A stretch of DNA of 47,925 nucleotides from Oscillospiraceae bacterium (GTDB lineage: Bacteria > Bacillota > Clostridia > Oscillospirales > CAG-272). How positions within the stretch are numbered: the stretch's first letter is position 1; each line of letters starts with the position of its first letter. The translations under genes were made by a program, and so were the position numbers. The notes under the pieces were generated by a model. The model saw only the letters and a list, made by a program, of their open reading frames with translations. It did no database searches and had not been told where the DNA came from. Positions 2,086-44,204 of this stretch are shown one piece after another. The DNA is taken from contig SVSX01000012.1 in assembly GCA_015064085.1 (NCBI GenBank), positions 1 to 47,925 on the forward strand, given 5' to 3'.

Positions 2086-4135
2086 TTTTTGCTCTCCTTA
2101 TATCTATTATCGTTACTCCGTCGGGAGCAAGTCTTACCTGAAAATGCTTTTTCTCCCCAGATGTCTTGTCATATTCAAAGAATCCCGTTTCATTCAATGC
2201 ATCAACAAATTTGACGGGCAGAACGGGAAAGTCACTCGCAATATCGGCGCTCTTCACCGAGAGGTCGGAATCGACCACCGCGTTGATATAAGCGTTATCA
2301 TATTTGTTGTAGACAAATATTCTTTCCCTTCCGTCGGAAAGCTGTTGTATCAGTATCGGGTGATTGGACTTGAGTCCGCTGACAGAATATACCGCTTCCA
2401 AAAGAAGCTTCGCGCAGGTCTTGATAAATCCCTTGGAAAGCTTTCTGAAAGGCAGCTCCGCAATAGGAGGATGCACCTCTATTTCGGGATCATCTCCCCT
2501 TGAAGGCAGACCGTCATCAAGCGAAAGAAGTCTGTCTATTTCCTCCCTTTCGGCATCTCCAAGCTTCATTCCGCAGAGAAATACGCTCATAGGAAGGTCG
2601 CTGAATCTATCCCTAAAGAGAGCTTCGGGCTCGATACCATTCAGCTCAAACTCAGCGGGGGCAGTTCCAACCCACGGGTACTTATATTCCGCGAGGGCGC
2701 TTTTTTCGGTCTCGGACAGCATATCAAAGTTCGGCACAAAAAGCACCTCGTCAAGAATTCCCTTGATAAGATACTCACTGCGGACAGCGCCGCCAAAGGG
2801 CGTTCCCGCCTTGAATATCTCAAAGCTCTGCTTATGCGGTGTTGCGCGGCGATTAGCAATGTATTCGCCGAGCATTTTTTCGTGGGCGTGATCCGACCAA
2901 AGCACGAGGGGAGATACCGACCGTGTTACATCGGCACTAAATCCAATATCGAGTCGCTTTTTAATAAAATCCCACTTTTGTCTTTCCACACCGTCTCCGA
3001 GACAGATAAAGACGCCGTCAGAAGCAGGTCTTGTGCCTATTTCGTTCTTCGAAGCAAAAGCCGTCATAGTATATACGTCTCTCTCGACTCTCACGGGGGC
3101 GTGATCTATCATACTCCACTCCTCCGAGGCATCGTGAATACTGACCATCGAAAGGATCTTTCTATCCCCCACCTGCGCTCTGAGCAGTGGGAGATCCATA
3201 TGGATACGGTGAAAATAGTACGGAAACTGCGGCTGCTCAAAGTAAACGCTCGAGGGAAGAATATTTGCGGTTATGCAATCGACTCCCGCAGCCATAACTC
3301 TCGCGGTGTCAAATCCGTAAGCGTATTTTGTTTCAAAGGGATCGGAGCAGTACATTCCAAGCACCCACACCTTTTTCCCCACGGCGTGGACAGCCGCGCA
3401 CACCTTCTTGAAAAAGCCTTCCCAACGCCATTCCCAGAAGGATATCCAGCTTTCTCTGCGCTCAAACCAGAGATATTTCTGACGTATCGTTGCCGCCTCG
3501 GCGCTGTCGTCTCCCATTGTTTTCTGAATTTCCTCGGGAAGCGCCTCGCCTGTGTGATCAAGAAACTGCTCTACCATATCTGTCGAATAATCAGATCTAA
3601 AAAGATTATGTGACGGACAGAACATATCCGCGAGATGCACTCCCGCGCAGTCGTAGTCAACAAGTGTCTCCACAAGCTTTTTCGCAAAGAAGTCCTCGTA
3701 ATAGCTTCCGTCCTTGAACCTCTTGAGGCACATAAGATTTCCCGCGCCCGAGGTTCTGCAGCTTCTCAGCTCCGGGTGATCTGAGAGCCACTCCTTATGA
3801 AATCTGTCCTTAAGATACGGGCCCATAATACCCGCGTAATATTCTATTCCCTGCTTTTTGAGCTCGGCAATAAGACCGCGAAGCTCAAGGTTAGTCCAAT
3901 CCTGCCTGTATCTCTCGGTGTTTCTGAGCACCGCGCGATATGAGCAGTTGTCGGGAAAAAGCGTGTATTCCTCATCCATTCCTCTGTGAAGATGAATAAA
4001 ATCGGGGTGAAACAGCAACGCGCAAACGCTCTCGGGGGTAAAGCCTGTATGTTCAAGGAAGTCCGAGACACCGTAATCGGGGGCTGTTCTGTCAAAAGCA
4101 AGCATCTGCAACCATATATTTATTGTTCTTTTCAT
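2078..4135 (-). CDS. putative TIM-barrel glycosidase-like protein between two DUF4838 genes
   Basis: 685 residues, family not recognised with certainty. The N-terminal half reads like a (beta/alpha)8 hydrolase: a strand with DYDCAGVHLADMF, aromatic-rich helices (RRESWISFWEWRWEGFFKK), a strand with GKKVWVLGMYCSDPF, and a later beta-galactosidase-like region (LVLWSDHAHEKMLGEY). The C-terminal part looks like a glutamine-amidotransferase-like plus beta-sandwich tail. There is no signal peptide or transmembrane segment. GGAGAG precedes the ATG, 14 bp after the upstream DUF4838 gene ends, and its own stop overlaps the next DUF4838 start, so it is made together with both. The context suggests a partner glycosidase working on the same intracellular oligosaccharide. 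It could instead be a non-catalytic member of the fold. Confidence 0.6.
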   Translation of the reverse strand: MKRTINIWLQMLAFDRTAPDYGVSDFLEHTGFTPESVCALLFHPDFIHLHRGMDEEYTLFPDNCSYRAVLRNTERYRQDWTNLELRGLIAELKKQGIEYYAGIMGPYLKDRFHKEWLSDHPELRSCRTSGAGNLMCLKRFKDGSYYEDFFAKKLVETLVDYDCAGVHLADMFCPSHNLFRSDYSTDMVEQFLDHTGEALPEEIQKTMGDDSAEAATIRQKYLWFERRESWISFWEWRWEGFFKKVCAAVHAVGKKVWVLGMYCSDPFETKYAYGFDTARVMAAGVDCITANILPSSVYFEQPQFPYYFHRIHMDLPLLRAQVGDRKILSMVSIHDASEEWSMIDHAPVRVERDVYTMTAFASKNEIGTRPASDGVFICLGDGVERQKWDFIKKRLDIGFSADVTRSVSPLVLWSDHAHEKMLGEYIANRRATPHKQSFEIFKAGTPFGGAVRSEYLIKGILDEVLFVPNFDMLSETEKSALAEYKYPWVGTAPAEFELNGIEPEALFRDRFSDLPMSVFLCGMKLGDAEREEIDRLLSLDDGLPSRGDDPEIEVHPPIAELPFRKLSKGFIKTCAKLLLEAVYSVSGLKSNHPILIQQLSDGRERIFVYNKYDNAYINAVVDSDLSVKSADIASDFPVLPVKFVDALNETGFFEYDKTSGEKKHFQVRLAPDGVTIIDIRRAKNV

Positions 4136-4149
4136 AACTCTCTCCGTTC

Positions 4150-6171
4150 TTATTCTTGGATTATTCCTCCAACGTACTCTGCCTTCTTATCGTTTTTCTT
4201 TAGGTCTTCAATTGGAATATCCTTGCGGAACTTATGGAAATATCTATCAGCATAAGCATAGGCAAGTCCAAGATGATCGCAGAACCTCTCAAATTCGGGC
4301 TCGCACTTACAGAACCCGTCAAAGAAATCGTGGAACGCGACCGAAGCACCGATCTCGTCCTCGCCCGTACACTTCACCGCAAGAATTTTTGATAGTCCGC
4401 TCCAGAATATAAGATAATTTTCAAGCAACTTAAACGAGACTGTCTCGGAACGGTAGCGCTGTTTCTTTACCTTATTTTCCTTGGCAAAAGCTATATAGCG
4501 TTCACATTCCTCGGAAAGGCTGAGAAGCGGCTTCTCCATAGAGGGATCGTACACTCTGCTGATCTTTTTGTCAAGGGAAGCCTTTCCGCACATAAATTTC
4601 ACGGGAACGATTCCTCCAATACGCTCGAATAGCTCGACTACATCTCTCCACACCTCGCCATAAGCGTGGCTGTAATAATCCTCCACCATTGTATCAAAGT
4701 CAACAGAGGTATCGAAAAGAGTCTCGGCATAGACGTAAAGCAAAAAGGTGTTCGGATAATAATTTCTCTGTGTACCGTCCTGAATAATTCCCTTCATACC
4801 GTTGATCTTATACGCCTTTACGTCCTTGTAAAGCATTCTTGCGTAATCCATATTACCGGGATTAAAATATTGGTTAAAACAGAAATGATACTCATAGACC
4901 ATAGTATTTGTTACCTTATAGGTCTCGACCTGACGCCTTGTCTGAAGGAGATACGTATCAATATCCGGCGGCATTATGAGCTTGTTGAGGGTATATGGCG
5001 CGGGTTCTATGTGCTTTGGTTTTTCGGGGATCGCTTCATAATAAGATCGGCTTATGGGCGCTACAAGTAACGAAAACCTGTCGGGATTTTTCAGCTTTAC
5101 CTTATCGGAAACGTAAAGCATCTCGGTATAGCAAGCAAAAACGACCTTTGATCCGAGACCTCTTGCCGTCATCTCCTCGTCTATCTCGTTAAGAAGCGTA
5201 ATATACCAATCCCAAGGCATCATCTTGCGGCATTCCTCGCACTCGCAATGATTATTCACAAAATCCGCAAGCCAAACGTGGATATAATCAACGCAGGTAT
5301 TCACCTCGCCGTAATCCGCCACAGCCTTCGCCACAAGATGTCTTGCCTTGTGGTTGGACATACAAAGCTGTGTGGTCAGAGGCGAGCCGCAGAAGAGCTT
5401 GCGCTCTCCGCCGATCATGGCTATCATCGACCTTGATTCCTCCGACAGCTTACTTTCGTCTATTCCCGCCCAGCCGTCACTCGAGTCGATACCTATTGGG
5501 TCGGCTGTCCAGCCGTGCCCCATATCCTGATATATAAGTCCCCTCTTTTTGATCTCGGCTTCGCACTCCCTCTTCCACTGAAGAGTCATTTCTGCGCTCA
5601 CGGGCTCGGGATCTCTGTTGGCTTCGTTATGTAAATGGTCATAATAATTATTGTAATATGCCTTTGGATTATCAAACTCAAGCATAAAGACGTTCATTCC
5701 AAGCTTAGGCGCGATATCGATAGCCTCGAGCATACACTGCTGAAATTCTGCTCCCTCGTTGCACCAGCCGCGGTAACGGCAATCGGCAAGCTTACGGTAC
5801 TTTATAGGTTCAAGCTCCTTTATCGGGATACAGTCTCCGTCAGAGCCGGGATAGAGCCAACGGCATCCGTTTTCCCTGAGAAATCTGTACACCGCGAGAA
5901 GTACGCTTCTCACGTTGCTTCCCGCGATAATACCTCCCTTCTCGTCGGTATCTATATAAATGATATCATCAAGTGTGATATCCTCTGCGTCGCTTGTATC
6001 AAGTCCAAATTCCGACATAACACCAAGTCTGAATCCGTCATTTGCCAAAGGGTCATATTTTATCGAGACATCTCCGCATCTCGGCATCATCATTCTAAGG
6101 TATTTTTTCAGCTCCTCAGCCGCGAAATCCACTACATTATCCGATGTGATCTTTTTTATTTCAAAATACAT
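4150..6171 (-). CDS. DUF4838-type putative cytosolic glycoside hydrolase (copy 2)
   Basis: 673 residues, first gene of the operon. The first 130 residues are nearly identical in pattern to copy 1 (VDFAAEELKKYLRMMMPRC; GSNVRSVLLAVYRFLRENG), and the barrel loop HVWLADFVNNHCECEECRK is conserved with the same Cys-x-Cys-x2-Cys spacing. The C-terminal third diverges from copy 1, which suggests different substrate ends or linkages rather than a recent redundant duplication. There is no signal peptide. The start is set by GGAGG nine bases upstream (6176-6186 region). A sigma-A promoter and a pair of direct repeats lie directly upstream. The function as glycosidase is inferred from family membership; the exact substrate is unknown. 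Confidence 0.8.
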   Translation of the reverse strand: MYFEIKKITSDNVVDFAAEELKKYLRMMMPRCGDVSIKYDPLANDGFRLGVMSEFGLDTSDAEDITLDDIIYIDTDEKGGIIAGSNVRSVLLAVYRFLRENGCRWLYPGSDGDCIPIKELEPIKYRKLADCRYRGWCNEGAEFQQCMLEAIDIAPKLGMNVFMLEFDNPKAYYNNYYDHLHNEANRDPEPVSAEMTLQWKRECEAEIKKRGLIYQDMGHGWTADPIGIDSSDGWAGIDESKLSEESRSMIAMIGGERKLFCGSPLTTQLCMSNHKARHLVAKAVADYGEVNTCVDYIHVWLADFVNNHCECEECRKMMPWDWYITLLNEIDEEMTARGLGSKVVFACYTEMLYVSDKVKLKNPDRFSLLVAPISRSYYEAIPEKPKHIEPAPYTLNKLIMPPDIDTYLLQTRRQVETYKVTNTMVYEYHFCFNQYFNPGNMDYARMLYKDVKAYKINGMKGIIQDGTQRNYYPNTFLLYVYAETLFDTSVDFDTMVEDYYSHAYGEVWRDVVELFERIGGIVPVKFMCGKASLDKKISRVYDPSMEKPLLSLSEECERYIAFAKENKVKKQRYRSETVSFKLLENYLIFWSGLSKILAVKCTGEDEIGASVAFHDFFDGFCKCEPEFERFCDHLGLAYAYADRYFHKFRKDIPIEDLKKNDKKAEYVGGIIQE

Positions 6172-16947: not shown

Positions 16948-18228
16948 TTATATGCTCTTAGCTTTTGCGCCGTAGAGCTCGTAAAGCATCCAGAGAACAG
17001 AATATCTGTCCTTAAGATCCTTTGCGTAGAGCTTACCGTCAGCGATCTTTTCCTCGCCGTAAAGCTTCGTAAAATCGTTATAATCAAGTCCGACTCTCTT
17101 TACGTAGTCAAGCATCTCAGCCGATGTGGGAGCTTCGGCGAGTACCTTGCGGATCTCTGCCCATTTTTCCTTGTAAATGGCAACTCTGTCAAGATCGTAC
17201 CAACCCATTTTGTTCTGAAGAGCAAATACCTCTCCCGCAATACTTCCGTAAATACGGTTGATGTTTGCGTTATACTCGTCAGCGTCGAAGCAATCGTTAA
17301 ACTCCTCGATATTCTCTATCTTGAGGAGCTCCTCGCGAATTCTGCAGGTCTCAACAGCCGAGTAGCATACGTCGATGCCGTGTGAGAAATAGGGCTCTCC
17401 TCTGAGGATACCAACGATCTCAAAATAGTGAGACATATGGTGCTCACTTCCCGATGCGGGTCTCGAGTTTCCAACGTATGCCATAAGGATACCAACGGTC
17501 ACAAGCGCCTTCATAAGGGCGGATACCGCGTGAGGATCGCGCTCTGTGAGCTTATCCGCAAGGAATACAGTCTCCTTTGTGGTATCCATAGTCGCGTTGA
17601 ATACGTAATCACAGATATATTCTCCGTTAACGACAGAGCTGAGCTTCCAGTCGTTAAGGCAGGAGAACTTACCGATGATATCTCCGTATCCCGCCTGGAT
17701 CATTTCAAAGGGAGCGTTCTTGATAATATTGATATCAGCAATGATAGCCTTCGGCACGTCTGCGTTGAGAGTTACCTTCATACCGTCAAGAATGAGAGCA
17801 GATCCCTTGGAAGCGTAACCGTCCATAGAGGGAGCGGTAGCTACTATGTAATAGGGGAGCTTTGAAGCGAAGCTTACCTGCTTACAAAGGTCGTTGATAA
17901 CTCCCGAGCCAACACCGACGATAAGGTCGGTCTTCTCTGTTACCTTGTCGGTGAGAAGCGCTATAGCCGCCTCGTTGGGAACGAGAACGCCCTCGGACTC
18001 ATAAACGAGCACAGACTCGATCTTGTCCTTTATAAGCTCCTCGACCTGCTTACCGCAAACGGCATAGGTATTGGTATCAGCCGCAAGAACGATGCTCGAA
18101 TAATTTGCTACGAGCTCGGGTATCTTCTTGAGAGCACCCTCTTCGATAACGAGATAATCGATAGGACAGCTGTGGGACATTCCGCAGGGACAGTCCTTTC
18201 TGCCTAAAAGCAATTCTGAAAGTTCCAT
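16948..18228 (-). CDS. araM: sn-glycerol-1-phosphate dehydrogenase (AraM/EgsA family)
   Basis: 426 residues. The family reduces dihydroxyacetone phosphate to sn-glycerol-1-phosphate with NAD(P)H. The nucleotide-binding segment GVGSGVINDLCK lies at residues 105-116 and TAPSMDGYASKGSA at 131-144. The metal ligands are in place: Asp183 in AGYGDIIGK, His263/264 in GSEHHMSH and His283 in SHGIDV. An N-terminal CPCGMSHSCP segment, common in bacterial AraM proteins, adds possible metal-binding cysteines. It lies 24 bp downstream of a HAD-family gene and shares its promoter. No PcrB-type or arabinose gene is adjacent, so the fate of the product is unclear; the neighbouring HAD phosphatase could dephosphorylate it. 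Confidence 0.88.
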   Translation of the reverse strand: MELSELLLGRKDCPCGMSHSCPIDYLVIEEGALKKIPELVANYSSIVLAADTNTYAVCGKQVEELIKDKIESVLVYESEGVLVPNEAAIALLTDKVTEKTDLIVGVGSGVINDLCKQVSFASKLPYYIVATAPSMDGYASKGSALILDGMKVTLNADVPKAIIADINIIKNAPFEMIQAGYGDIIGKFSCLNDWKLSSVVNGEYICDYVFNATMDTTKETVFLADKLTERDPHAVSALMKALVTVGILMAYVGNSRPASGSEHHMSHYFEIVGILRGEPYFSHGIDVCYSAVETCRIREELLKIENIEEFNDCFDADEYNANINRIYGSIAGEVFALQNKMGWYDLDRVAIYKEKWAEIRKVLAEAPTSAEMLDYVKRVGLDYNDFTKLYGEEKIADGKLYAKDLKDRYSVLWMLYELYGAKAKSI

Positions 18229-18252
18229 ATTATTTCTCCTTAAGCTTAAGAA

Positions 18253-18963
18253 TTAAAGAAGCTCGCTGACACACTTACCGAATTCGAGGTAGTTGTCAAC
18301 ACAGATAAATCCGAAATCCGACTTGTAGACCGACTCGTCGTTTCCGCCAAGTCCGTAGTCGTCACCGACAAAGACTACCTCATCGTGCTTGAAGCCGTGC
18401 TCTTTGCAGTAGAGATCGAGAGCGTAGTACTTGTTGTAGGGCTTGGGCGCCATATCGAAGGAGGAAGATCCGCCAACGAAGACCTCATAGTCGGAAAACT
18501 CAGCGCAAACCTCATCATATATTGCTCTGCGCTTTGAGCGGTCGGGGTCGAAAGCGAGCTTGTCGGCAATGTCAGCCTTTGTTCCGAGTATCGGGAAGGT
18601 AACGACGCCCGAGTCGTGGAATTCGACGTTCTCACCCTTGAACTCGGTAAATCCGTACTTTTTACGCATAGCGGTAATCTTTGCGTCGACTGTCTCTCTG
18701 TCACAGGGGAGTCTTTCGTCGCGTACAATGTCAAGAAGACCTGTTTCGGGATTGTACTTGGCGTACTGAAGACCGTAGTTGCCCATAACGTCTATGGGGA
18801 ATCTGTTGAGCTGCTCAAAGATACGGTTGCAGTTGCCCGCTCCTGCCATAACCAGCTTGTACTTTGCCGCAAGCTTCTCAAGCACGGCGCGGTTTGTGGG
18901 ATCAAGCTTTGTCTTGTGCTGTGTAAGTGTTCCGTCGAGATCAAATGCGATAAGTTTAATCAT
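18253..18963 (-). CDS. HAD-superfamily protein resembling eukaryotic-type phosphomannomutase
   Basis: 236 residues. HAD motif I is FDLDGTLT with the nucleophile Asp8 and acid/base Asp10. The C-terminal motifs GGSSSFDMAPKPYNKYYAL and GDDYGLGGNDESVY follow the pattern of eukaryotic PMM and related HAD-IIB proteins, in which the Asn-Asp pair binds Mg2+. Length agrees with that group (about 240-250). It may be a sugar-phosphate phosphatase or a mutase; the sequence cannot separate these. GGAG precedes the ATG. A strong promoter lies upstream and the AraM gene follows 24 bp later, so the two probably act on linked phospho-compounds. Confidence 0.75.
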   Translation of the reverse strand: MIKLIAFDLDGTLTQHKTKLDPTNRAVLEKLAAKYKLVMAGAGNCNRIFEQLNRFPIDVMGNYGLQYAKYNPETGLLDIVRDERLPCDRETVDAKITAMRKKYGFTEFKGENVEFHDSGVVTFPILGTKADIADKLAFDPDRSKRRAIYDEVCAEFSDYEVFVGGSSSFDMAPKPYNKYYALDLYCKEHGFKHDEVVFVGDDYGLGGNDESVYKSDFGFICVDNYLEFGKCVSELL

Positions 18964-19003
18964 TTTTCTTCTCCTTTATAATTTCAAATTTATTTTCAAC
19001 AAC

Positions 19004-19032
19004 ATTATAATATTTTGATTGATTTCTGTCAA
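19004..19032 (-). promoter_or_regulatory. sigma-A promoter of the HAD-araM operon
   Basis: On the minus strand: TTGACA (19027-19032), 17 bp, TATAAT (19004-19009), about 40 bp before the start codon. Confidence 0.85.
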
Positions 19033-19068
19033 TATTCGGCTGTAATTATTATAAACGATCAAAAACGA

Positions 19069-19953
19069 TCATATTTGATTTTTCACGGGATTACAATAAA
19101 ATGCGGCAACACCCTGTGTTTTCAGCTCATCTTCTGCGAGTTTTGCCGTTTTCTCATCGGGAAAAATCCCGAACACAGAAGGACCGCTTCCGCTCATCAT
19201 AGCGTTATAAGCACCCCGAGCAAGCATTACCTCTTTTATAGCCGTCACCTCTTCCCTTTCGGGCTCGATAGCCCGCTCAAAGATATTATAAATATTCTCT
19301 GCCACCGAAAGTATATCTCCGTCTTCGAGAGCGCGCCGCAAGGGTGAGAGATCTTTTGGCGAGTACGCGCCTTCGGCAAAGCCGCCGAAGCAGGAGTCAA
19401 GAGTCGAATACGCCCAAGGAGTCGAAACTCCCTCCTTGCCGCAAGCGACGACCATATGACAGCTCGGCATTTCGGCGATAGGGTGAAGCAGGTCTCCGTA
19501 TCTGTCGGCAAAAAGCGTTCCTCCCACAATGCAAAACGGCACGTCAGCTCCGAGCGCCGCTCCCAACTCGCAAAGCTCGGAGAGCGTCATCGGCTCACCG
19601 CAAAGTCGGTTGAGTCCGCGAAACCCAGCCGCCGCGTCGGTACTCCCCCCCGCAAGTCCCGCCGCCACGGGAATACGCTTGAATATCTTAATATCGGCAG
19701 CGCGCTTCTCTCCGATCCTCTCAAAGAAGATATCAGCGGCACGCCACGCGAGATTTTTTCGGTCTTTTGGGATAGACTCTATATTGCAGGAGATACTGTG
19801 GCTCTCCCCCTCGCTGAGCGCGACGGTAACATCGTCGCAGAGCGAGACAGTCTGCATCACCGTGTCCACCTTATGATATCGGTTCTCGGCAATTCCGAGA
19901 ACGTCAAGATGCAGATTTATTTTGGCATAAGCCTTGAGATCAATACCGTCCAT
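19069..19953 (-). CDS. ispE: 4-diphosphocytidyl-2-C-methyl-D-erythritol kinase
   Basis: 294 residues. GHMP-family kinase of the non-mevalonate isoprenoid pathway; it phosphorylates CDP-methylerythritol. Visible are the N-terminal AYAKINLHLDVLG, the ATP-binding PVAAGLAGGSTDAAAG, and the C-terminal MMSGSGPSVFGIF. The start at 19953 is chosen over a frame 24 codons longer, because GGAGG lies 5 bases before it and the promoter -35 box overlaps the longer frame's start. Length fits the family (about 290). It is monocistronic and divergent from the AI-2E-type permease. The presence of MEP-pathway ispE is standard for Clostridia. Confidence 0.93.
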   Translation of the reverse strand: MDGIDLKAYAKINLHLDVLGIAENRYHKVDTVMQTVSLCDDVTVALSEGESHSISCNIESIPKDRKNLAWRAADIFFERIGEKRAADIKIFKRIPVAAGLAGGSTDAAAGFRGLNRLCGEPMTLSELCELGAALGADVPFCIVGGTLFADRYGDLLHPIAEMPSCHMVVACGKEGVSTPWAYSTLDSCFGGFAEGAYSPKDLSPLRRALEDGDILSVAENIYNIFERAIEPEREEVTAIKEVMLARGAYNAMMSGSGPSVFGIFPDEKTAKLAEDELKTQGVAAFYCNPVKNQI

Positions 19954-19996
19954 AAACACCTCCGAAACAGAACTGGCAGCCGCGTTTGTTAAAAAT

Positions 19997-20025
19997 ATTT
20001 TATCATATCCCAAATACTTTTTCAA
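19997..20025 (-). promoter_or_regulatory. sigma-A promoter of ispE
   Basis: On the minus strand: TTGAAA (20020-20025), 17 bp, TAAAAT (19997-20002). Confidence 0.7.
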
Positions 20026-26112: not shown

Positions 26113-26366
26113 GGGGCTGTCACATTTGGCAAGACCGAAAAAGTCCGAGAATAAATAAAAGAATCCCGTTTACGCATAAAAACGCAAATGAGACAGTAAT
26201 AGGTTGAATTTCTTCGAAATTCTTCATCTTTATGGACTTTTTCTACCGCCGTTTTCGGGGCTCGACGTACGCTTGTACGCCTCACGCCCCGAAGAACGAC
26301 GCTTCTTGCTCAAATCTGACTATCCCCTAACAGAGGCTGTCTCAAATTTGCATTTGAGACAGCCTC
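26113..26366 (+). repeat. 255-bp MITE-like element, copy A
   Basis: Nearly identical (over 90% by eye) to the reverse complement of 38142-38397. The outer ends GGGGCTGTCACATTTGG and the complement of TTTGAGACAGCCTC form imperfect terminal inverted repeats. Inside are several hairpins: GAATTTC-ttc-GAAATTC, CGGGGC...GCCCCG enclosing CGTAC-gctt-GTACG, AAGAA...TTCTT, and a perfect 15-bp stem at the right end followed by TTTTT. It fills the convergent gap between the CorC-type gene (stop 26104) and the zinc-ribbon gene (stop 26373). No coding capacity. Confidence 0.85.
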
Positions 26367-26372
26367 TTTTTG

Positions 26373-26813
26373 TTATAACAGTGACGCGATAAAAGCTATT
26401 ATTATTATCATAGAATAAAAAGCCCAGAATGCGGTAAATGAAATGCTGACAGCAAGCGCCGCTGTACCTATTCCCTTTCCCGCGGATGCGCGTCCCTCGG
26501 TCTCTCCGAATTTCTCGACGTATTCCTTAAGTGTCTTTTTGGATATAACGGAAAAGATTATTCCCAAAAAGGACAGACAGGAAAGACCGAACGCAAGCCC
26601 CATGATCGCGAAGGTCAGTATCTTACCGCCGAGACCGTCTCTTTCCGCCTCAAGAGTCGGATCAAGCGACAGTGTCTCAGCCTTATCGGCGGGTATATCA
26701 GCCTCAAATTCAAGTGTCTTCTGAGGCTCTACATCTTCATTGCATATCTTTCCGCACTTCGGGCAGAATTTTCCGCCATCGGGAATTTCATTTCCACAAT
26801 ACTTACAGAACAT
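26373..26813 (-). CDS. zinc-ribbon membrane protein (DUF4190-like)
   Basis: 146 residues. Residues 3-20 form a zinc ribbon with Cys3, Cys6, Cys17 and Cys20 (MFCKYCGNEIPDGGKFCPKC). An acidic linker of about 40 residues follows, then two hydrophobic segments near 64-90 and 115-144. This layout is common for small membrane sensors or scaffold proteins in Bacillota; the function is unknown. Its start overlaps the alpha/beta hydrolase gene by 11 bp, making it the last gene of the six-gene lipid operon. The stop lies 7 bases from the terminal hairpin of the 255-bp element. Confidence 0.7.
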   Translation of the reverse strand: MFCKYCGNEIPDGGKFCPKCGKICNEDVEPQKTLEFEADIPADKAETLSLDPTLEAERDGLGGKILTFAIMGLAFGLSCLSFLGIIFSVISKKTLKEYVEKFGETEGRASAGKGIGTAALAVSISFTAFWAFYSMIIIIAFIASLL

Positions 26814-27804
26814 TTTGATTCTCCTTCTCTGCTATAATTTCTCTGTCAAGACGGTGCAAGAAATTCTCAATTGCTCCGTCGTATCTTTCGGTGTCTGTGA
26901 TCCTCAGCATCGAGTGTCTTCCGTGCTCAAACCACACGATCTCCTTCTCCTCAGAGCCCGCAAGCTCAAAGAGCTTTTCGGCAAACTCGGGGGTAGAATA
27001 AAGATCCTCTCTGCTGTGAAGCATAAGCAGAGGCGCATTCAGCCTCTCTATCACATCTATAGGTCCTCGGTCCATAGTGTGGCCTGTATAATGCTTCATC
27101 CACATATTTATGAGGTCATAGAGGATAAACACAGGCTTTTTCTTTTCGATAAGATGATTTTTCATCGATTCCCCGAAATTCGGGAACATTCCCTCGGTCA
27201 CAATACCCTTGAGGCTCTCGGGAGCGTTTTCCGACGTGATCGCCAGCATTCCCGCCGCCGCTCCTATGCAGATGCCGTGGAAGACCACAAAATGAATATT
27301 ATATTCTTCCTTAAGAAAATCCACCCAAGCGATAGCGTCACCGCTCTCCTCAAAGCCTACGGTATTGAATTCTCCGTCGCTGAGTCCGTGTCCGCGAGGG
27401 TCGAGGACGAGAACGTTATAACCGTTTTTCGCATATGGGATCGCAAAATAATATCCGTATCTCAGGCTCTCTGTCCTTCCCGAAAGAATGACAACGCATC
27501 TCTCATTTCCGAAATCGTAGTATTCTCCGTAAAGATTGAGACCCTTATTGACTATATGTACGTCCTTTTTAAAGCCGATATTCTCATCGCTCCATCTGAC
27601 TCCCGCCTCGTACATCGGCTTCTGCTCGGGATCGATATCCTTCGGCATCTCTCTGCTCCACTGATCCTTGCTCCTTCTTCTGAGAGTACAGTTATAAACA
27701 CAATAAGATGCCACAAGGTAGGAGATCGCCCACATAAGGAGACCCGAGCCCACAAGTATCCCCACTGTAATGAGAAATATGGGGTGAGTTATTATTCCTA
27801 TCAT
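26803..27804 (-). CDS. membrane-anchored alpha/beta hydrolase with a Cys nucleophile elbow
   Basis: 333 residues. One N-terminal transmembrane segment (about 5-35) anchors an alpha/beta hydrolase domain. The oxyanion strand VLVLDPRGHGLSDG is typical. The nucleophile elbow reads FHGICIGAA, so Cys179 replaces the usual Ser; Asp267 (HSREDLY) and His297 (EHGRHSML) complete a triad. Cys nucleophiles occur in dienelactone hydrolase and some acyl-transfer enzymes, and Ser is the rule in this subfamily. It overlaps the acyltransferase gene by 4 bp (ATGA) and the zinc-ribbon gene by 11 bp. In this operon a lipid ester or thioester is the likely substrate; that is inference. Confidence 0.8.
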   Translation of the reverse strand: MIGIITHPIFLITVGILVGSGLLMWAISYLVASYCVYNCTLRRRSKDQWSREMPKDIDPEQKPMYEAGVRWSDENIGFKKDVHIVNKGLNLYGEYYDFGNERCVVILSGRTESLRYGYYFAIPYAKNGYNVLVLDPRGHGLSDGEFNTVGFEESGDAIAWVDFLKEEYNIHFVVFHGICIGAAAGMLAITSENAPESLKGIVTEGMFPNFGESMKNHLIEKKKPVFILYDLINMWMKHYTGHTMDRGPIDVIERLNAPLLMLHSREDLYSTPEFAEKLFELAGSEEKEIVWFEHGRHSMLRITDTERYDGAIENFLHRLDREIIAEKENQNVL

Positions 27805-28454
27805 TTTTTCCTGCCCCCCCTTTCATTTTTCAGCTCTTCAAGACGAGCGCGAAGCTCAAGCACCTTTCCGAAAACGTATTCGTTAGCTGCCTCAAGCTCC
27901 TGACGGCGAGGAGTTGGACGGTCCTCGGTAAAGAAGTGCGACACGTCGATCTCCTTTCCGATAATAACACTCGCCCTTTTGAAAAGGCCGTAATTTCCGT
28001 CGGTCACTATAGGAACGATCGGCGCTTTTGCTCTGTGCGCTATCACAAGGTAGCTTCGCTTGAATTCGTGGATATTGCCGTCGGGAGTGTTTCTTCCCTC
28101 GGGATAGATCTGCACAAGCTGTCCCTTCCGTATTACAGAGGCACATTCGTCCATAAAGCGCATATTCTTTGTCTCTCTGTTTGCCTGAACAGCTCCGAAA
28201 AATTTCATTCCTATGCGTACGATACGGTGTCTGAAGGGCACTTCGGAAGTGACCACATTCAGCTTCCTCGGAAAAACTATGAATGATGTTAAAACGTAGT
28301 CAAGGAAATTGAAATGATTGCTTATTATAAGCTTCCCGCCTTTATAAAGGTGGGTGCTTTTTTTGTCCTCATAATAGGTCCTCCGCTTAAAGAGCAGAAG
28401 CTGCGCGGGGTATCCCGTTACAAGTCCTAAAAGACGAAAAAATCCGTAGATCAT
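27801..28454 (-). CDS. PlsC-type lysophospholipid acyltransferase
   Basis: 217 residues from the ATG at 28454, which directly follows the stop of the transporter gene; a frame 18 codons longer runs back into that gene and lacks its own ribosome site. The H-x4-D motif is NHFNFLD (His47, Asp52) and the substrate-binding block is IYPEGRNT (Glu119-Gly120). A short hydrophobic N-terminus probably docks it to the membrane. The enzyme should transfer acyl groups to lysophospholipid or 1-acylglycerol-3-phosphate. Being coupled to FakA/FakB and an MFS_2 transporter suggests re-acylation of imported lysolipid or use of acyl-phosphate from FakA, rather than the housekeeping PlsC role. Confidence 0.85.
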   Translation of the reverse strand: MIYGFFRLLGLVTGYPAQLLLFKRRTYYEDKKSTHLYKGGKLIISNHFNFLDYVLTSFIVFPRKLNVVTSEVPFRHRIVRIGMKFFGAVQANRETKNMRFMDECASVIRKGQLVQIYPEGRNTPDGNIHEFKRSYLVIAHRAKAPIVPIVTDGNYGLFKRASVIIGKEIDVSHFFTEDRPTPRRQELEAANEYVFGKVLELRARLEELKNERGGRKK

Positions 28455-28455
28455 A

Positions 28456-29778
28456 TTATTTCGTCTCTTTTTCCCTGCCCATATAGGCAATCTCACCCGA
28501 AAAGGCAAAGGACATACAGAAGGCTGTCATACAGCATACCGCAACTATTATGGGAAGCAAAGATATCTTTGAATAATTCTTAAGGCAAACAAGTATAAAT
28601 CCCGTGGCAATTCCCGAAGCGATCCCCTCAAATACCCCCTGAACCGCAAAGAGCATTGATGCTATTCCCTTGCCGGAGCGCTCAAGCTCTCGCTGCGCAA
28701 GGTGGGTGGGTACAGTGTAGGTCACCGAGAAGAACGAGCCTATGGCAAAGGAAACAAAAATTCCACCGAGAATGGCGACCATTGTAAGAGCAAGCTTACT
28801 GAGACTGTCGGAGGTAACGTTGCAGATATACATCACGATCATTCCGATCGAGAAGATAGAAAGTATGTATCTATAGGCAAATCCCAAGCCCTTGCGCTTG
28901 ACTATGTGATTATAGAGTATGATAGTCAGCGGAACGGGGACAAAGGAAGACGCCATAACGACCGTCATATTGAGTCCTGTTGAAGAAAAGAGCTCGTTTA
29001 TTCCACCGAGGAAGAGCTGAAGTCCCACTGTCATCATAGACGAGGTGAACATCCAATATATAAATGGCTTGTTTTTGAACGCCGTCTTCATAGATTCTGA
29101 GAGAGTGAGAGTTCTTATGTTCTTCTCCCCGTCAGAGTCCTCCTTAAGGAGAAAGAGCGGTATAAGCATTGTCAGCGACAGAGGCAGGAAGATCAACGCA
29201 ACAATTCGAACGTTGATGCCGATGCTGACGAATACGGGAATAAGCGCAAATCCGAGAATAAAGTAGACTACATCACATACCGATTTGACATTTGAAAGAA
29301 ACACCGTGTCCTGCTCGGTCTCGCAGACCTCGGAGAATGTCGCGTAAAAGGTGAGCATCGTCAGAGTATAGCAGGAATAAAATACGCAGAGCATAACTCC
29401 AAACCAGATCGTGTTTACAATCGACTCACCCGAGGTTATAGGACAGAGGAAAAGCAGATACGACAAGACCATAGGAACAAATCCTATGACGATAGCGGTC
29501 TTTCTGCGCCCGAATTTGGTATTTAATCTGTCCGCAAAGGATGCGAGCGGAAGGTCAATAAGTCCGTCAAGCGCCTTTGCGAGGAATACGAGCACTGCCC
29601 AAATCCCCGCTACCACAAGATCCTTATTGAGATATGTCCATGACTCAACGTGCTCGTCAAATCCACCCACAAGGAGCGCGCTGCAAAGATAAGAGCCAAC
29701 TATCAGCGTCAGCATATTGACACCCATTCCCGAGCATCCGTAAAGCACGAGCTTCTTTTTGTCTGTTATTTTTTTCAT
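28456..29778 (-). CDS. MFS transporter of the GPH/MFS_2 family
   Basis: 440 residues, twelve predicted transmembrane segments. Family marks are an early KALDGLIDLPLASFADRL followed by NTKFGRRKTAIVIG between TM2 and TM3, the positions where GPH permeases carry their conserved Asp and the loop RxGRRR. MFS_2 includes sugar-cation symporters and also MFSD2A, the animal lysophosphatidylcholine carrier. The gene sits between fakA (13 bp upstream) and a lysophospholipid acyltransferase gene. The context favours a lipid-like cargo such as lysophospholipid over a sugar, but no residue proves this. GAGGGGG precedes the ATG. Confidence 0.8.
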   Translation of the reverse strand: MKKITDKKKLVLYGCSGMGVNMLTLIVGSYLCSALLVGGFDEHVESWTYLNKDLVVAGIWAVLVFLAKALDGLIDLPLASFADRLNTKFGRRKTAIVIGFVPMVLSYLLFLCPITSGESIVNTIWFGVMLCVFYSCYTLTMLTFYATFSEVCETEQDTVFLSNVKSVCDVVYFILGFALIPVFVSIGINVRIVALIFLPLSLTMLIPLFLLKEDSDGEKNIRTLTLSESMKTAFKNKPFIYWMFTSSMMTVGLQLFLGGINELFSSTGLNMTVVMASSFVPVPLTIILYNHIVKRKGLGFAYRYILSIFSIGMIVMYICNVTSDSLSKLALTMVAILGGIFVSFAIGSFFSVTYTVPTHLAQRELERSGKGIASMLFAVQGVFEGIASGIATGFILVCLKNYSKISLLPIIVAVCCMTAFCMSFAFSGEIAYMGREKETK

Positions 29779-29791
29779 TTCTTTTCCCCCT

Positions 29792-31429
29792 CTATTCGAA
29801 AATGAGTGTTATATCGTAGGCTGTCTCAGCGGTCGAAACAGCGGCAATCTCTATAAGCTCGTCAAGATCCCCGATCTTGTCCGAAATACTCGCTATATAT
29901 TCATCGGCAATATCCTTGCCATAGAAGATCGTTATCACGCCGCACTCGCGCCCTCTCAGCACACTTTTCACCGTGCTGACGGTAACGTTCTCAAGGGTGT
30001 CACCTACCTCGAGCACCTTTTTCTCAGACAGTGAGAAGAAATCATTCTTGGCAATATGTCGGCTTCCAAAGGTCGATTCCTTAACCGCGCGGTGTATCGA
30101 CACCTGACGGATATTAGATATGGTGTCGTTGGCAAGTGAGACAGCCTCTTCAATATCACGTCCGAAATCCATTACCGACAGCGTCGCGTAGCACTCCGCA
30201 AGCGAACGGCAATTAAGGACGGTAACTCCCGCGTTTTTATAAAGACTTCCCGCCTGCATTGAGGTAAGGATTGAGTTCGAGCTATTCGGAAAGACAAGTA
30301 TCTTTTTTGCCTTTGTCAGCTTAAAGGCGTCCATAAAATCCTGAGACGAAGGAGCTATATCGCTCATTATTACCACGTCAGCCCCCATTTCAAAGAGCTT
30401 TTGCTGCATCTCGGAATTTGTTGCCACGGCAACCACAGAAAATTCAGCATCCTCGGGATCGCTCGAATAGAGGAATTTTTGGCTTTCCTTTTTCTCCTTC
30501 TCCTTCTGCATATTCTGCACCGTCATATTGTCTATCTTTACCGTAAGGAACTCTCCGTAGCCCTGACAAAACTCAAAGAGCTTACCGAGGGAGGCGGTGT
30601 GAACGTGAAGCTTGAGCTTATCCTCCTCAACAGAAGCGACCACCGAGCCGCCCTTTGTTGAAAGCTCCTTTTTTAACCTGTCAAGATCAAGCTCGGACGG
30701 CTCAAACCTCAGCTGTATAAGTCCCTCAACGCAGTACCCGTAATCAAACACGGTATCCTTGTTGAAGAGCGAAAGATCGATATATTCCTTGACAGTGTCC
30801 TCTTTTTGAGCCTCTATGGGCTCACCTTGCAGATATTTTTGTACTCCCTCGAAGAAGCAGACTATTCCGCTTCCGCCGCTGTCTACCACGTTCGCCTTTT
30901 TAAGGACGGGCAGAAGGTTTGGGGTATTTTCAAGCGACACTCTCGCGGCAGAGAGATATACCTCCACAGCCTTGTCGATATCCGAAAGAGGCAGTGCCGC
31001 CGAAAGAGCGCGTGACGCATCCCCTGCGACGGTAAGCATCGTTCCCTCAACAGGTCTTGCCACCGATGCATAAGCATAGGCAACGCCCTTCTCAAGGGCT
31101 TCCGAGAAGAGTCTGCTGTCAGCCTCCTCCGCACCGAGGAACGCCTCTGATATGCCCTTGAAAAACTGTGATACGATAACACCCGAGTTTCCTCTCGCCC
31201 CAAAGACAGCCGAGGAGGCAAAGTGTCCCGAAAGCTCGGAGAGCGAGCCGCTCTTGTTCTTTACAGCCTCATATCCGTATCTCAGTGTCATCACCATATT
31301 AGTTCCCGTGTCTCCGTCGGGAACGGGAAAAACGTTGAGATCGTTCAGCTCACTTCTGTGGAGCTCAAGATTTTTTATTCCGCTGTTGAGCATTTCAACG
31401 TAGCGTGATCCGTTAATTTTTTCTAACAT
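29792..31429 (-). CDS. fakA: fatty acid kinase ATP-binding subunit FakA (DAK2 - YloV)
   Basis: 545 residues, the usual size. The N-terminal DAK2 domain has the metal/ATP loop NVFPVPDGDTGTNMVMTL (Asp38 and Asp40) and GARGNSGVIVSQFFKG, with ANVVDSGGSG closing the site. The central region and the C-terminal DegV-like EDD-type domain (about 300-545) follow. FakA phosphorylates fatty acids presented by FakB, giving acyl-phosphate for PlsX/PlsY. It is the second gene of the operon, 31 bp after fakB. Start by AAGG near the ATG. Confidence 0.88.
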   Translation of the reverse strand: MLEKINGSRYVEMLNSGIKNLELHRSELNDLNVFPVPDGDTGTNMVMTLRYGYEAVKNKSGSLSELSGHFASSAVFGARGNSGVIVSQFFKGISEAFLGAEEADSRLFSEALEKGVAYAYASVARPVEGTMLTVAGDASRALSAALPLSDIDKAVEVYLSAARVSLENTPNLLPVLKKANVVDSGGSGIVCFFEGVQKYLQGEPIEAQKEDTVKEYIDLSLFNKDTVFDYGYCVEGLIQLRFEPSELDLDRLKKELSTKGGSVVASVEEDKLKLHVHTASLGKLFEFCQGYGEFLTVKIDNMTVQNMQKEKEKKESQKFLYSSDPEDAEFSVVAVATNSEMQQKLFEMGADVVIMSDIAPSSQDFMDAFKLTKAKKILVFPNSSNSILTSMQAGSLYKNAGVTVLNCRSLAECYATLSVMDFGRDIEEAVSLANDTISNIRQVSIHRAVKESTFGSRHIAKNDFFSLSEKKVLEVGDTLENVTVSTVKSVLRGRECGVITIFYGKDIADEYIASISDKIGDLDELIEIAAVSTAETAYDITLIFE

Positions 31430-31459
31430 ACCTTACATCCTAAATTTTATTTCGAAGCT

Positions 31460-32392
31460 TCAGCTTTCGGAAAGAGCCAAGGTCAGCGCTTCCTTCTCCT
31501 TGACACAGTCCTCGGAAACAGGCTCTCCCATAAAATAAATACTTATCATACCGGGTCCGATATTCGTTCCGCAGCCCGAAAATACGTCGCTGACGAATAC
31601 CCTCTTGCATTTAAGTGTCGACTCCACCTTTTCCTTCAGCGCCATCGCGTATTTTTCCCTGTCACTGTGCATTATAAAAATGTACTGATCCTCGATATCG
31701 ACAGCCATACGCCCGGCGTACGCAACGGTGGCGTCAAGTGCCTTTTTCATTCCCTTTGCCTTGGCAAGAACCGTCACGTATCCATCGGTGTTAGAATCTC
31801 CCATAGGCTTTACTCCCACAAGATTTCCCATTATAGCCTTTCCGTTTGAGATCCTTCCGCGACGTGCGACAAACATAAGATCATCGATCGGACCCATCTG
31901 GTGTACTCTATGCTTATTTTCCTCAAGCCAAGCCACCACCTCGTCAAAGCTCTTTCCGTTATTTTTCATCTCGCAGGCATAAGCCACAAGTAAGCCGAAC
32001 GATCCCGACATTCTCATAGAGTCGAGGCAGTATATTTTCAGATCGGGGTACTCATGCTGCACTCTTTTTGCCGCGGACACGGAAATATTATATGTAGCGC
32101 TTATCTTTGAGGATATCGACATACTGAGAATATCAAAGCCCTTTTCCGCATAGTCCTTGAATATGCGGTAATATTCCTCGGGACTTGCGGTAGCGCTGCT
32201 TACGGTATTGCTTTTGCTTGAAAGAGTCTTATAAAACTCCTCTCTTGATATCTCGCTCCACTCAAGCTTGGTTCTAAGACTTCTGTCGTTTATATGAACG
32301 TATCCCTCTATGTAATCCTCAAGTCGGAAGTAGTCTCTGATCTCCCTTGAAAGGTCGCAGGTTACGTCTGGCAATATCACAAATTTATCCAT
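31460..32392 (-). CDS. fakB: DegV-family fatty-acid-binding protein (FakB)
   Basis: 310 residues from the ATG at 32392, where GGGAGG lies 5 bases upstream; the longer frame starts 8 codons earlier without a ribosome site. The DegV fold is clear: LPDVTCDL at the N-terminus, the lipid-headgroup loop around SSATASPEEYY, SMSISSKISATYNIS, and LDSMRMSGSFGLL. The protein extracts a fatty acid from the membrane and presents it to FakA. It is the first gene of the lipid operon with a sigma-A promoter of its own. Other fakB genes may exist elsewhere, as most Bacillota have several with different chain preferences. Confidence 0.85.
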   Translation of the reverse strand: MDKFVILPDVTCDLSREIRDYFRLEDYIEGYVHINDRSLRTKLEWSEISREEFYKTLSSKSNTVSSATASPEEYYRIFKDYAEKGFDILSMSISSKISATYNISVSAAKRVQHEYPDLKIYCLDSMRMSGSFGLLVAYACEMKNNGKSFDEVVAWLEENKHRVHQMGPIDDLMFVARRGRISNGKAIMGNLVGVKPMGDSNTDGYVTVLAKAKGMKKALDATVAYAGRMAVDIEDQYIFIMHSDREKYAMALKEKVESTLKCKRVFVSDVFSGCGTNIGPGMISIYFMGEPVSEDCVKEKEALTLALSES

Positions 32393-32441: not shown

Positions 32442-32470
32442 ATTATATCACAGGATCAAAAAAATTACAA
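32442..32470 (-). promoter_or_regulatory. sigma-A promoter of the fakB lipid operon
   Basis: On the minus strand: TTGTAA (32465-32470), 17 bp, TATAAT (32442-32447), about 50 bp before the fakB ATG. Confidence 0.75.
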
Positions 32471-38141: not shown

Positions 38142-38397
38142 GAGGCTGTCTCAAATGCAAATTTGAGACAGCCTCTGTTAGGGGATAGTCAGATTTGAGC
38201 AAGAAGCGTCGTTCTTCGGGGCGTGAGGCGTACAAGCGTACGTCGAGCCACGAAAACGGCGGTAGAAAAAGTCCATAAAGATGGAGAATTTCGAAGAAAT
38301 TCAACCTATTAGTGTCTCATTTGCGTTTTTTCTGTCGCAAACGGGATCTTTTTTTTATTTTCGGACTTTTTCGGTCTTGCCAAATGTGACAGCCCCC
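38142..38397 (-). repeat. 255-bp MITE-like element, copy B (inverted)
   Basis: The reverse complement of copy A at 26113-26366 with only scattered changes. Here the perfect terminal hairpin lies next to ackA (stop 38126) and the GGGGCTGTC end next to the AraC gene (stop 38402), followed on the plus strand by a run of T. As in copy A, the element fills the whole convergent gap. One G-C pair in the CGGGGC stem is lost (G to T). Confidence 0.85.
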
Positions 38398-43454: not shown

Positions 43455-44204
43455 ATGACTCTCAGGGAGTTTTTCACTTTTGGAATACTTGGCAATATCG
43501 CAAATACACCTGCTATGTCAGACACGGCAAGAGGAGCGATCATCCTCACTGCCGCGGCTATATGCATTTTCTTTCCTTATCTGCTTGGAAGTATGAACTT
43601 CGCAATCATCATATCAAAGAAGAGATATAAGGCAGACATCAGAAGCTTCGGAAGCGGAAACGCGGGAGCGACCAATATGATGCGCACATTCGGCAAGACC
43701 GCTGCCTATCTCACATTTCTCGGCGATGCCCTGAAGGCTTTCGTTGCGGGAATGATAGGATATGCCGCTTGGGGTCAGTACGGTGTCTATATCGCGGGAC
43801 TTTTCTGCATTCTCGGTCATATGTTTCCCTTGTATTATAAATTCAAGGGCGGCAAGGGCGTTGTAACCGCGGCAATATCGATACTTATGTGTAACCCCAT
43901 CGTCTTTCTCATACTCGTTGCTATCTTCCTTCTCATCGCGGTAGGAACTAAGTATATTTCTCTCGCGTCGGTAATGTGTATGCTTCTCTATCCTTTGGTA
44001 CTTGACAGAGTAGAAAAGCTTATGGGCGGACACGCGGGCGCGTATCTGGTTATTGCTATTGCCAACGCCCTGTTGGTCGTATTTATGCACAGAGAGAACA
44101 TAAAGAGACTTCTTGCGGGAAAGGAAAGCAAGTTCTCATTCAAGAAAAGCGTAAAACCCGAAGGCGCACCCCTCCCCGAAGAAAAGCCAAAGAACGAGGA
44201 CTGA
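43455..44204 (+). CDS. plsY: glycerol-3-phosphate acyltransferase PlsY
   Basis: 249 residues. Membrane enzyme transferring acyl groups from acyl-phosphate to glycerol-3-phosphate. The three conserved motifs are present: SFGSGNAGATNMMRTFG, GHMFPLYYKFKGGKGVVTA, and a late MHRENIKRLLAGKE. There are about six hydrophobic segments. It is longer than the typical 200 residues because of an extra N-terminal helix of about 30 residues and a charged C-terminal tail. GGAGG lies 8 bases before the ATG. First of three co-directional genes. It links to the FakA/FakB operon, since FakA makes its acyl-phosphate donor. Confidence 0.92.
   Translation: MTLREFFTFGILGNIANTPAMSDTARGAIILTAAAICIFFPYLLGSMNFAIIISKKRYKADIRSFGSGNAGATNMMRTFGKTAAYLTFLGDALKAFVAGMIGYAAWGQYGVYIAGLFCILGHMFPLYYKFKGGKGVVTAAISILMCNPIVFLILVAIFLLIAVGTKYISLASVMCMLLYPLVLDRVEKLMGGHAGAYLVIAIANALLVVFMHRENIKRLLAGKESKFSFKKSVKPEGAPLPEEKPKNED

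Follow-up and report, generated by a model that had tools for sequence, protein, structure and literature searches.

A stretch of DNA from an Oscillospiraceae bacterium (assembly GCA_015064085.1, contig SVSX01000012.1, positions 1 to 47,925 of the forward strand; GTDB CAG-272), which we call the window over its whole length of 47,925 nucleotides, contains a six-gene operon that we interpret, with moderate confidence, as a dedicated system of lipid acquisition. In this reading, a lipid that has lost part of its acyl chains would be taken up with cation coupling, and acyl groups would be activated locally for (re)acylation. Three features are new here: a second-copy FakA/FakB kinase pair in which FakB has an Asn in its carboxylate site, a hydrolase-fold enzyme with a Cys nucleophile, and the scarcity of the fatty-acid synthesis gene FabF in genomes that carry the operon's transporter. 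The genes and flanking signals are as follows.

31460..32392, minus strand: fakB-like carrier of the DegV family (PF02645, 176.7 bits; above the TIGR00762 cut-off)
29792..31429, minus strand: fakA-like kinase with Dak2, FakA_M and FakA_C domains (PF02734, PF21645, PF13684; TIGR03599 score 449.4, cut-off 396.1)
28456..29778, minus strand: MFS_2 transporter (PF13347, 81.5 bits)
27801..28454, minus strand: PlsC-type acyltransferase (PF01553, 72.8 bits)
26803..27804, minus strand: membrane-anchored alpha/beta hydrolase-fold enzyme, Hydrolase_4 (PF12146, 60.8 bits)
26373..26813, minus strand: small protein, Zn_Ribbon_1, with the zinc ribbon at its N-terminus and a hydrophobic C-terminal half (PF13240, 28.8 bits)
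32442..32470, minus strand: promoter-like site 5' of fakB, TTGTAA-17-TATAAT with TG before the -10 (consensus match only)
26332..26367, no strand: palindrome with a 16-bp stem past the operon end, within a 173-bp repeat (from the sequence)

The operon extends from 32392 down to 26373, with all six genes on the minus strand in the order fakB-fakA-MFS_2-plsC-hydrolase-zinc-ribbon, and searches with Pfam and NCBIfam models bore out the families that an earlier reading of the DNA (the original prediction) had assigned to them. The gaps, in operon order, are 30, 13, 1, -4 and -11 bp. The tight packing that had been described therefore stands, with a largest gap of 30 bp rather than 31, and the last three of the five junctions overlap or abut, as had been stated. 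The start of fakB is the ATG at 32392, which is preceded by a fitting GGGAGG; the longest plsC open reading frame opens at a TTG at 28508, and the ATG at 28454 comes after the MFS stop. There is no obvious break in GC content at the operon. The 173-bp repeat that ends in the palindrome is present at 26200-26372 and again at 38142-38308 of the window, and the 2.0 Mb genome contains at least 44 copies that are long (185 bits or more), several of them at contig ends; this count comes from scoring 40 of 98 first-look candidates.

The order of the operon is not due to chance: it recurs in other Clostridia, as the original prediction required, and is not unique to this genome. A single-sequence search of contigs gave four loci, all in relatives known from metagenome assemblies, two of which are from deer caecum and sheep colon; the counts that follow come from whole-genome searches. 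Transporter profile A1 at E = 1e-30 matched 47 of the 395 family genomes sampled, 6 of 295 from the order and 10 of 391 from the class, and at E = 1e-60 only the window's own genome matched among 398 of the phylum; these samples overlap, and the window's own genome is in each count. We scored 65 distinct neighbourhoods with our own profiles, many of them at contig edges and some near-copies of each other. Loci L093, L103 and L104 (on the same contigs as L044, L043 and L045) and L146 (an MFS fragment at a contig end, with an LRAT-ACPS gene nearby) were dropped beforehand, and three weak transporter matches (genomes G1032, G960 and G761; 107-115 bits) lie outside the counts. Genes of acyl-lipid metabolism are present in 60 of the 65 neighbourhoods. 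The order fakB-fakA-MFS-plsC-hydrolase is found in 13, window included, and 11 of these also have the zinc-ribbon gene (in two of the 11, genes are broken across two reading frames); the zinc-ribbon profile matches in 28 of the 65 loci.

The window operon represents the compact version of a modular locus that has four main architectures. Type I, the window form, is fakB-fakA-MFS-plsC-abhC-znr, where abhC denotes the Cys hydrolase (abhS being its Ser counterpart) and znr the zinc-ribbon gene. Type II adds an AMP ligase with a phosphopantetheine domain between the MFS gene and plsC, and mostly lacks znr. Type III comprises ligase-ACP, plsC, plsC2, ligase2, LRAT, abhS, fakB, MFS, fakA, abhC and znr, and type IV comprises ligase-ACP, a longer MFS gene, plsC, plsC2, ligase2 and LRAT. 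Departures from these types include L106, without plsC, and L135, L137 and L140, without ligase2. Pfam models identify ligases with AMP-binding and PP-binding domains in three loci. In the type IV locus L134, plsC2 and ligase2 are fused into a protein of 726 residues in the order of Escherichia coli Aas (719 residues), with two co-linear BLAST matches. In L045, a locus otherwise of type I, the transporter itself (L045:4392-6038) ends in a phosphopantetheine (ACP) domain with the motif DLGGTSLD. We also observed, within lipid clusters, single proteins that combine LRAT with a 4'-phosphopantetheinyl transferase (L037:4515-5525, L113:6032-7069 and L098:4835-5848), and a weaker example whose transferase part is below cut-off (L038:15116-16102).

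A tree of 63 transporters (L046 and L145 were excluded for low scores) follows these architectures. A branch with 100/100 support sets off the 44 members of types I-III, all of which carry acyl-lipid genes. Types I and II interleave, and type I needs three changes, two of them forced by supported branches. The five architecture labels need seven changes on the tree, compared to a mean of 36.4 when labels are shuffled, although near-copies favour such clustering. Two loci, L125 and L145, are labelled type I by rule and have the gene order of a truncated type III; L125 was counted as type III in the tree.

The larger architectures could also fit a process in the opposite direction, in which a special acylated lipid is built inside the cell by the ligases or Fak proteins, ACP and PlsC enzymes, and the MFS protein exports it or flips it outward. 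Types III and IV, with two PlsC proteins, two AMP ligases, ACP and a phosphopantetheinyl transferase, do resemble an assembly line, and MFS proteins often export; our neighbourhood profiles did not include head-group enzymes. Uptake is favoured instead by the conserved cation-symport site of the transporter, and the scarcity of FabF among carriers fits scavenging better (both described below), so we regard an outward flip as unlikely.

A firm grouping of the transporter with the melibiose and glucuronide symporters, which would have spoken against the original prediction, was not seen. Even at E = 10 the window protein is not matched by the GPH sugar-symporter model TIGR00792, and neither is that of L043 (cut-off 231.35; a MelB control scored 577.1). 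Other transporters score far below the cut-off, both in L033 (52), L113 (41) and L036 (47) and in the partnerless loci L101 (53) and L100 (69). The residues of the MelB cation site, Asp55, Asp59 and Thr121 (Asp71, Asp75 and Thr138 in the window), are conserved in all 63 transporters. The galactoside-binding residues Asp19, Asp124 and Arg149 of MelB are Asn, Met and Ser in the window protein; across the 63, Asp19 is replaced by Asn in 61, Asp124 by Met, Leu or Val, and Arg149 by Ser, Ala or Thr, although an invariant Lys165 lies one residue off the Arg149 column, which may be misaligned. According to the accessible part of a study of the family (PMC8329300), conservation of the sugar residues is confined to MelB orthologues, and the cation site is shared with MFSD2A and present in nearly all MFS_2 members analysed, so it is not specific to lysolipid carriers. 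Therefore, absence of the sugar residues excludes a MelB-type site only, and is no proof of a lipid site. The window transporter also has no BLAST match to LplT at E = 1 and no match to the LplT model NF008397, and a single-sequence search of PDB sequences gave nothing useful.

The PlsC-type protein retains its catalytic motifs: in 14 sequences N46, H47, D52 and P118 are invariant and E119 nearly so (NHx4D and PEG). It aligns with the first 139 residues of E. coli Aas (BLAST E = 7e-7), and matches the 1-acylglycerol-3-phosphate acyltransferase model below cut-off (58.1 vs 102.95). For the hydrolase, the original prediction had proposed lipid cleavage or acyl transfer, and the active site shifts the weight between these. 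Its nucleophile is Cys in all 40 operon (abhC) proteins (GxCxG in 39, AxCxG in one), and Ser in all 21 neighbouring abhS hydrolases (GxSxG); this split is partly circular because the classes were set by our own profiles, though the position of abhC within the clusters is constant too. In the window the triad is Cys179 (GICIG), Asp267 and His297, and the Asp and His are invariant in nine sequences. With a Cys nucleophile, lipid cleavage is no more likely than acyl transfer. LRAT is another family of Cys acyl-transfer enzymes. A structural model (pLDDT 78.9) shows an alpha/beta hydrolase fold with an N-terminal helix at residues 8-41, and the nearest fold is esterase Pf2001, followed by various hydrolases including monoglyceride lipases.

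The operon's kinase pair is not the only one in its genome. Another fakB-fakA pair, on contig C60, adjoins an AMP-ligase-like gene and has a higher FakA_C score. The genome also has PlsX on contig C32, PlsY in the window itself (43455-44204), and five further PF01553 matches besides the operon PlsC; therefore, the operon versions are extra copies. In the same genome we noticed a protein of 588 residues (L155:2943-4709, contig C72) whose C-terminal half matches the PF01553 acyltransferase family and whose N-terminal half looks like a GT8 glycosyltransferase; its gene adjoins a second acyltransferase and a similar glycosyltransferase. The window FakA has the Dak2-M-C domain set and is under the FakA_VfrB equivalog cut-off (334.6 vs 975); the kinase motif PDGDTGxNM is present in the eight sequences compared. 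The window FakB is below the FakB1 equivalog cut-off (91.6 vs 350).

The changes in FakB appear to fall on residues of known function. In Staphylococcus aureus FakB1, as set out in the part of the published account available to us (PMC8892158), a network of Ser171, His270, Thr62, the carboxylate and Ser95 binds the fatty acid, and activity requires Arg173 as a latch. Transferring this numbering through shared motifs, and thus by inference rather than by alignment to FakB1 itself, we found Asn at the His270 position in all 42 operon FakBs, Arg or Lys at the Gly/Ser171 position in 41 of them (Arg in the window), and Gln or Lys at position 173 in eight. The Ser/Thr positions of the network are mostly retained. 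The carboxylate His is present in the C60 FakB and in four other DegV proteins near these loci. The window FakB thus does not have the Thr/Ser/His network of FakAB systems and, judged on sequence, the operon FakB is non-standard at its head-group site.

Such changes could suit a monoacylglycerol salvage route, in which the DhaL-type kinase acts on the hydroxyl of a lipid presented by the FakB-like carrier, PlsC converts the resulting lysophosphatidic acid to phosphatidic acid, and a monoglyceride-lipase-like enzyme trims the rest. The near-universal replacements at two FakB positions, one of them His270 of the carboxylate network (PMC8892158, in the part available), agree with this route, as do the sub-threshold acyltransferase match of PlsC and the hydrolase fold, which is nearest to Pf2001 with monoglyceride lipases lower in the list. 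Asn and Arg could still hold a carboxylate, however. Moreover, no FakA is known to act on a lipid hydroxyl, and we think salvage of this kind distinctly unlikely.

Carriers of the transporter rarely have FabF, which is required for fatty-acid synthesis. We compared 80 hand-chosen genomes at E = 1e-30: 52 carriers, and 28 non-carriers, defined by no match to the transporter profile and mostly of high completeness. FabF was found in two carriers (G1023, type IV, and G201, type II) vs 10 of the 28 non-carriers (Fisher P = 0.0003), and among genomes at least 90% complete in 2 of 22 vs 10 of 27 (P = 0.04), both without phylogenetic correction. The window's own genome, which is 82% complete, has no FabF match at E = 0.001. 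Contrasts within genera agree in g48 and g35 (the g35 carrier is 72% complete), and in g23 with a below-cut-off match; the match of G022 is under the cut-off of the family. In g1, FabF is present in one of three carriers and one of seven non-carriers, and in g3, g4 and g37 it is found in neither group. The same association bears on whether the operon only repairs the envelope, by re-acylating the cell's own lysolipids after attack by phospholipase or bile. The LplT-Aas system has a described role in phospholipase protection (PMC11416262, accessible part), but a link with FabF absence points to supply rather than repair alone, and we judge a purely protective function improbable.

Several observations weigh against lipid acquisition. 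Five loci have no lipid partners; they lie across the 100/100 branch from types I-III, L099 within the type IV group and the other four outside that group. A GPH-like protein, L040, from the same family of genomes (27% identity) scores 120.6 against TIGR00792, also below cut-off, so a low score is only weakly telling: it separates the window protein from MelB and is not a marker of a lipid carrier. The MelB sugar residues are likewise missing in L040-L042. An AlphaFold model of the transporter from five sequences is poor (pLDDT 60.8, with a weak N-terminal half), and a Foldseek search with this low-confidence model places MelB at the top and MFSD2A at ranks 16, 29 and 40. A profile search of PDB sequences matched neither MFSD2A nor MelB chains. 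With its altered site, the FakB may be unable to bind fatty acid. Besides the two carriers with FabF, 18 of the 28 non-carriers have no FabF match (17 of the 27 that are at least 90% complete); carrier state and FabF absence may both follow lineage, and fatty-acid synthesis may be widely lost in this family of genomes.

Some of these points would suit an ordinary sugar symporter in an accidental gene neighbourhood. Besides the MelB matches of the model, most characterised members of the family carry glycosides, according to the available portion of the family study (PMC8329300). The 60 loci with acyl-lipid genes, the fusion of the transporter to ACP and the missing TIGR00792 match of the window protein make this very improbable. 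We set the sugar reading aside mainly on gene neighbourhood, the GPH and MelB-residue evidence having the caveats given above.

Alongside the observed gene set, conservation, partners, active-site changes and FabF association, we infer the cargo, its direction and each reaction of lipid acquisition. In a cation-coupled manner, the MFS_2 protein would carry to the inner leaflet a polar lipid that lacks some of its acyl chains; the likeliest cargo is a lysophospholipid or some other monoacyl glycerolipid. In type I the Fak-type pair would provide acyl groups by activating fatty acid, whether exogenous or released; in types II-IV an AMP ligase-ACP would be added to this pair or used in its place. 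The PlsC-type enzyme would then esterify the lipid at the cytoplasmic face, and the membrane-anchored Cys-Asp-His enzyme may move or remove acyl chains through a thioester acyl-enzyme, as LRAT may do in types III and IV. Cells without fatty-acid synthesis could in this way build membranes from host or diet lipid. The lipid-scavenging and re-acylation function originally predicted is thus supported in part, by the ligase-ACP, Aas-layout fusion, LRAT and MFS-ACP partners and by the near-absence of FabF in carriers; the picture changes in that FakB is not of the standard kind at its head-group site.

A bolder version, which we offer as speculation and consider quite doubtful, is that the modular locus feeds lipid to Clostridia that lack fatty-acid synthesis, as a parallel to LplT-Aas. 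It would comprise the first bacterial MFSD2A-like importer of lysolipid (or monoacylglycerol), a kinase pair adapted so that it phosphorylates the imported lipid itself, and a thiol acyltransferase, and membranes would be built directly from host or dietary glycerolipid. The accessible text of a 2024 paper on LplT-Aas (PMC11416262) notes lysolipid uptake in Gram-positives and suggests that certain other MFS proteins may be responsible, and that of a 2019 paper on mitis-group streptococci (PMC6805115) calls the lysolipid transporters unidentified. Literature searches on such an operon and on Clostridia without fatty-acid synthesis, whose coverage leaves out most subscription papers, gave no description of this gene set in titles and starts of abstracts among the matches listed. 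A conserved gene set with a candidate importer makes the route of lysolipid import into Gram-positive bacteria testable. If the FabF absence holds, it suggests a membrane source for Clostridia unable to make fatty acids, and bears on their cultivation.

Elsewhere in the window, genes for an Fe-ADH_2 protein, a HAD hydrolase and a GHMP kinase adjoin at 16948-20025; the Fe-ADH_2 family includes glycerol-1-phosphate dehydrogenases. Three neighbouring proteins of like size, two of them with DUF4838, are encoded at 145-6171.

Several components of the operon have known counterparts from which they differ. The hydrolase shares its fold and its triad Asp and His with the Pf2001 esterase and the monoglyceride lipases (Hydrolase_4), but has Cys rather than Ser as nucleophile. 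The kinase pair belongs to the same families as FakAB of S. aureus and Enterococcus faecalis and keeps the kinase motif, but its FakB does not have the carboxylate His. The transporter shares the Pfam family MFS_2 and the conserved cation site with MelB and MFSD2A, but has neither a curated GPH match nor a sequence match to their chains. The closest parallel for the whole is LplT-Aas of E. coli, which likewise unites an MFS transporter, a PlsC-type acyltransferase and acyl activation in one cluster, and whose PlsC-AMP ligase fusion has a counterpart in the type IV locus L134. The window transporter, however, is of the MFS_2 family and does not match LplT by BLAST; acyl activation falls to a Fak-type kinase pair without an AMP ligase, whereas types II-IV have both PlsC and ligase; and the Cys hydrolase-fold enzyme is an addition. 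In the preferred reading the window operon would work like LplT-Aas, yet it is not a member of that system: its transporter is unrelated and the ligase is absent.

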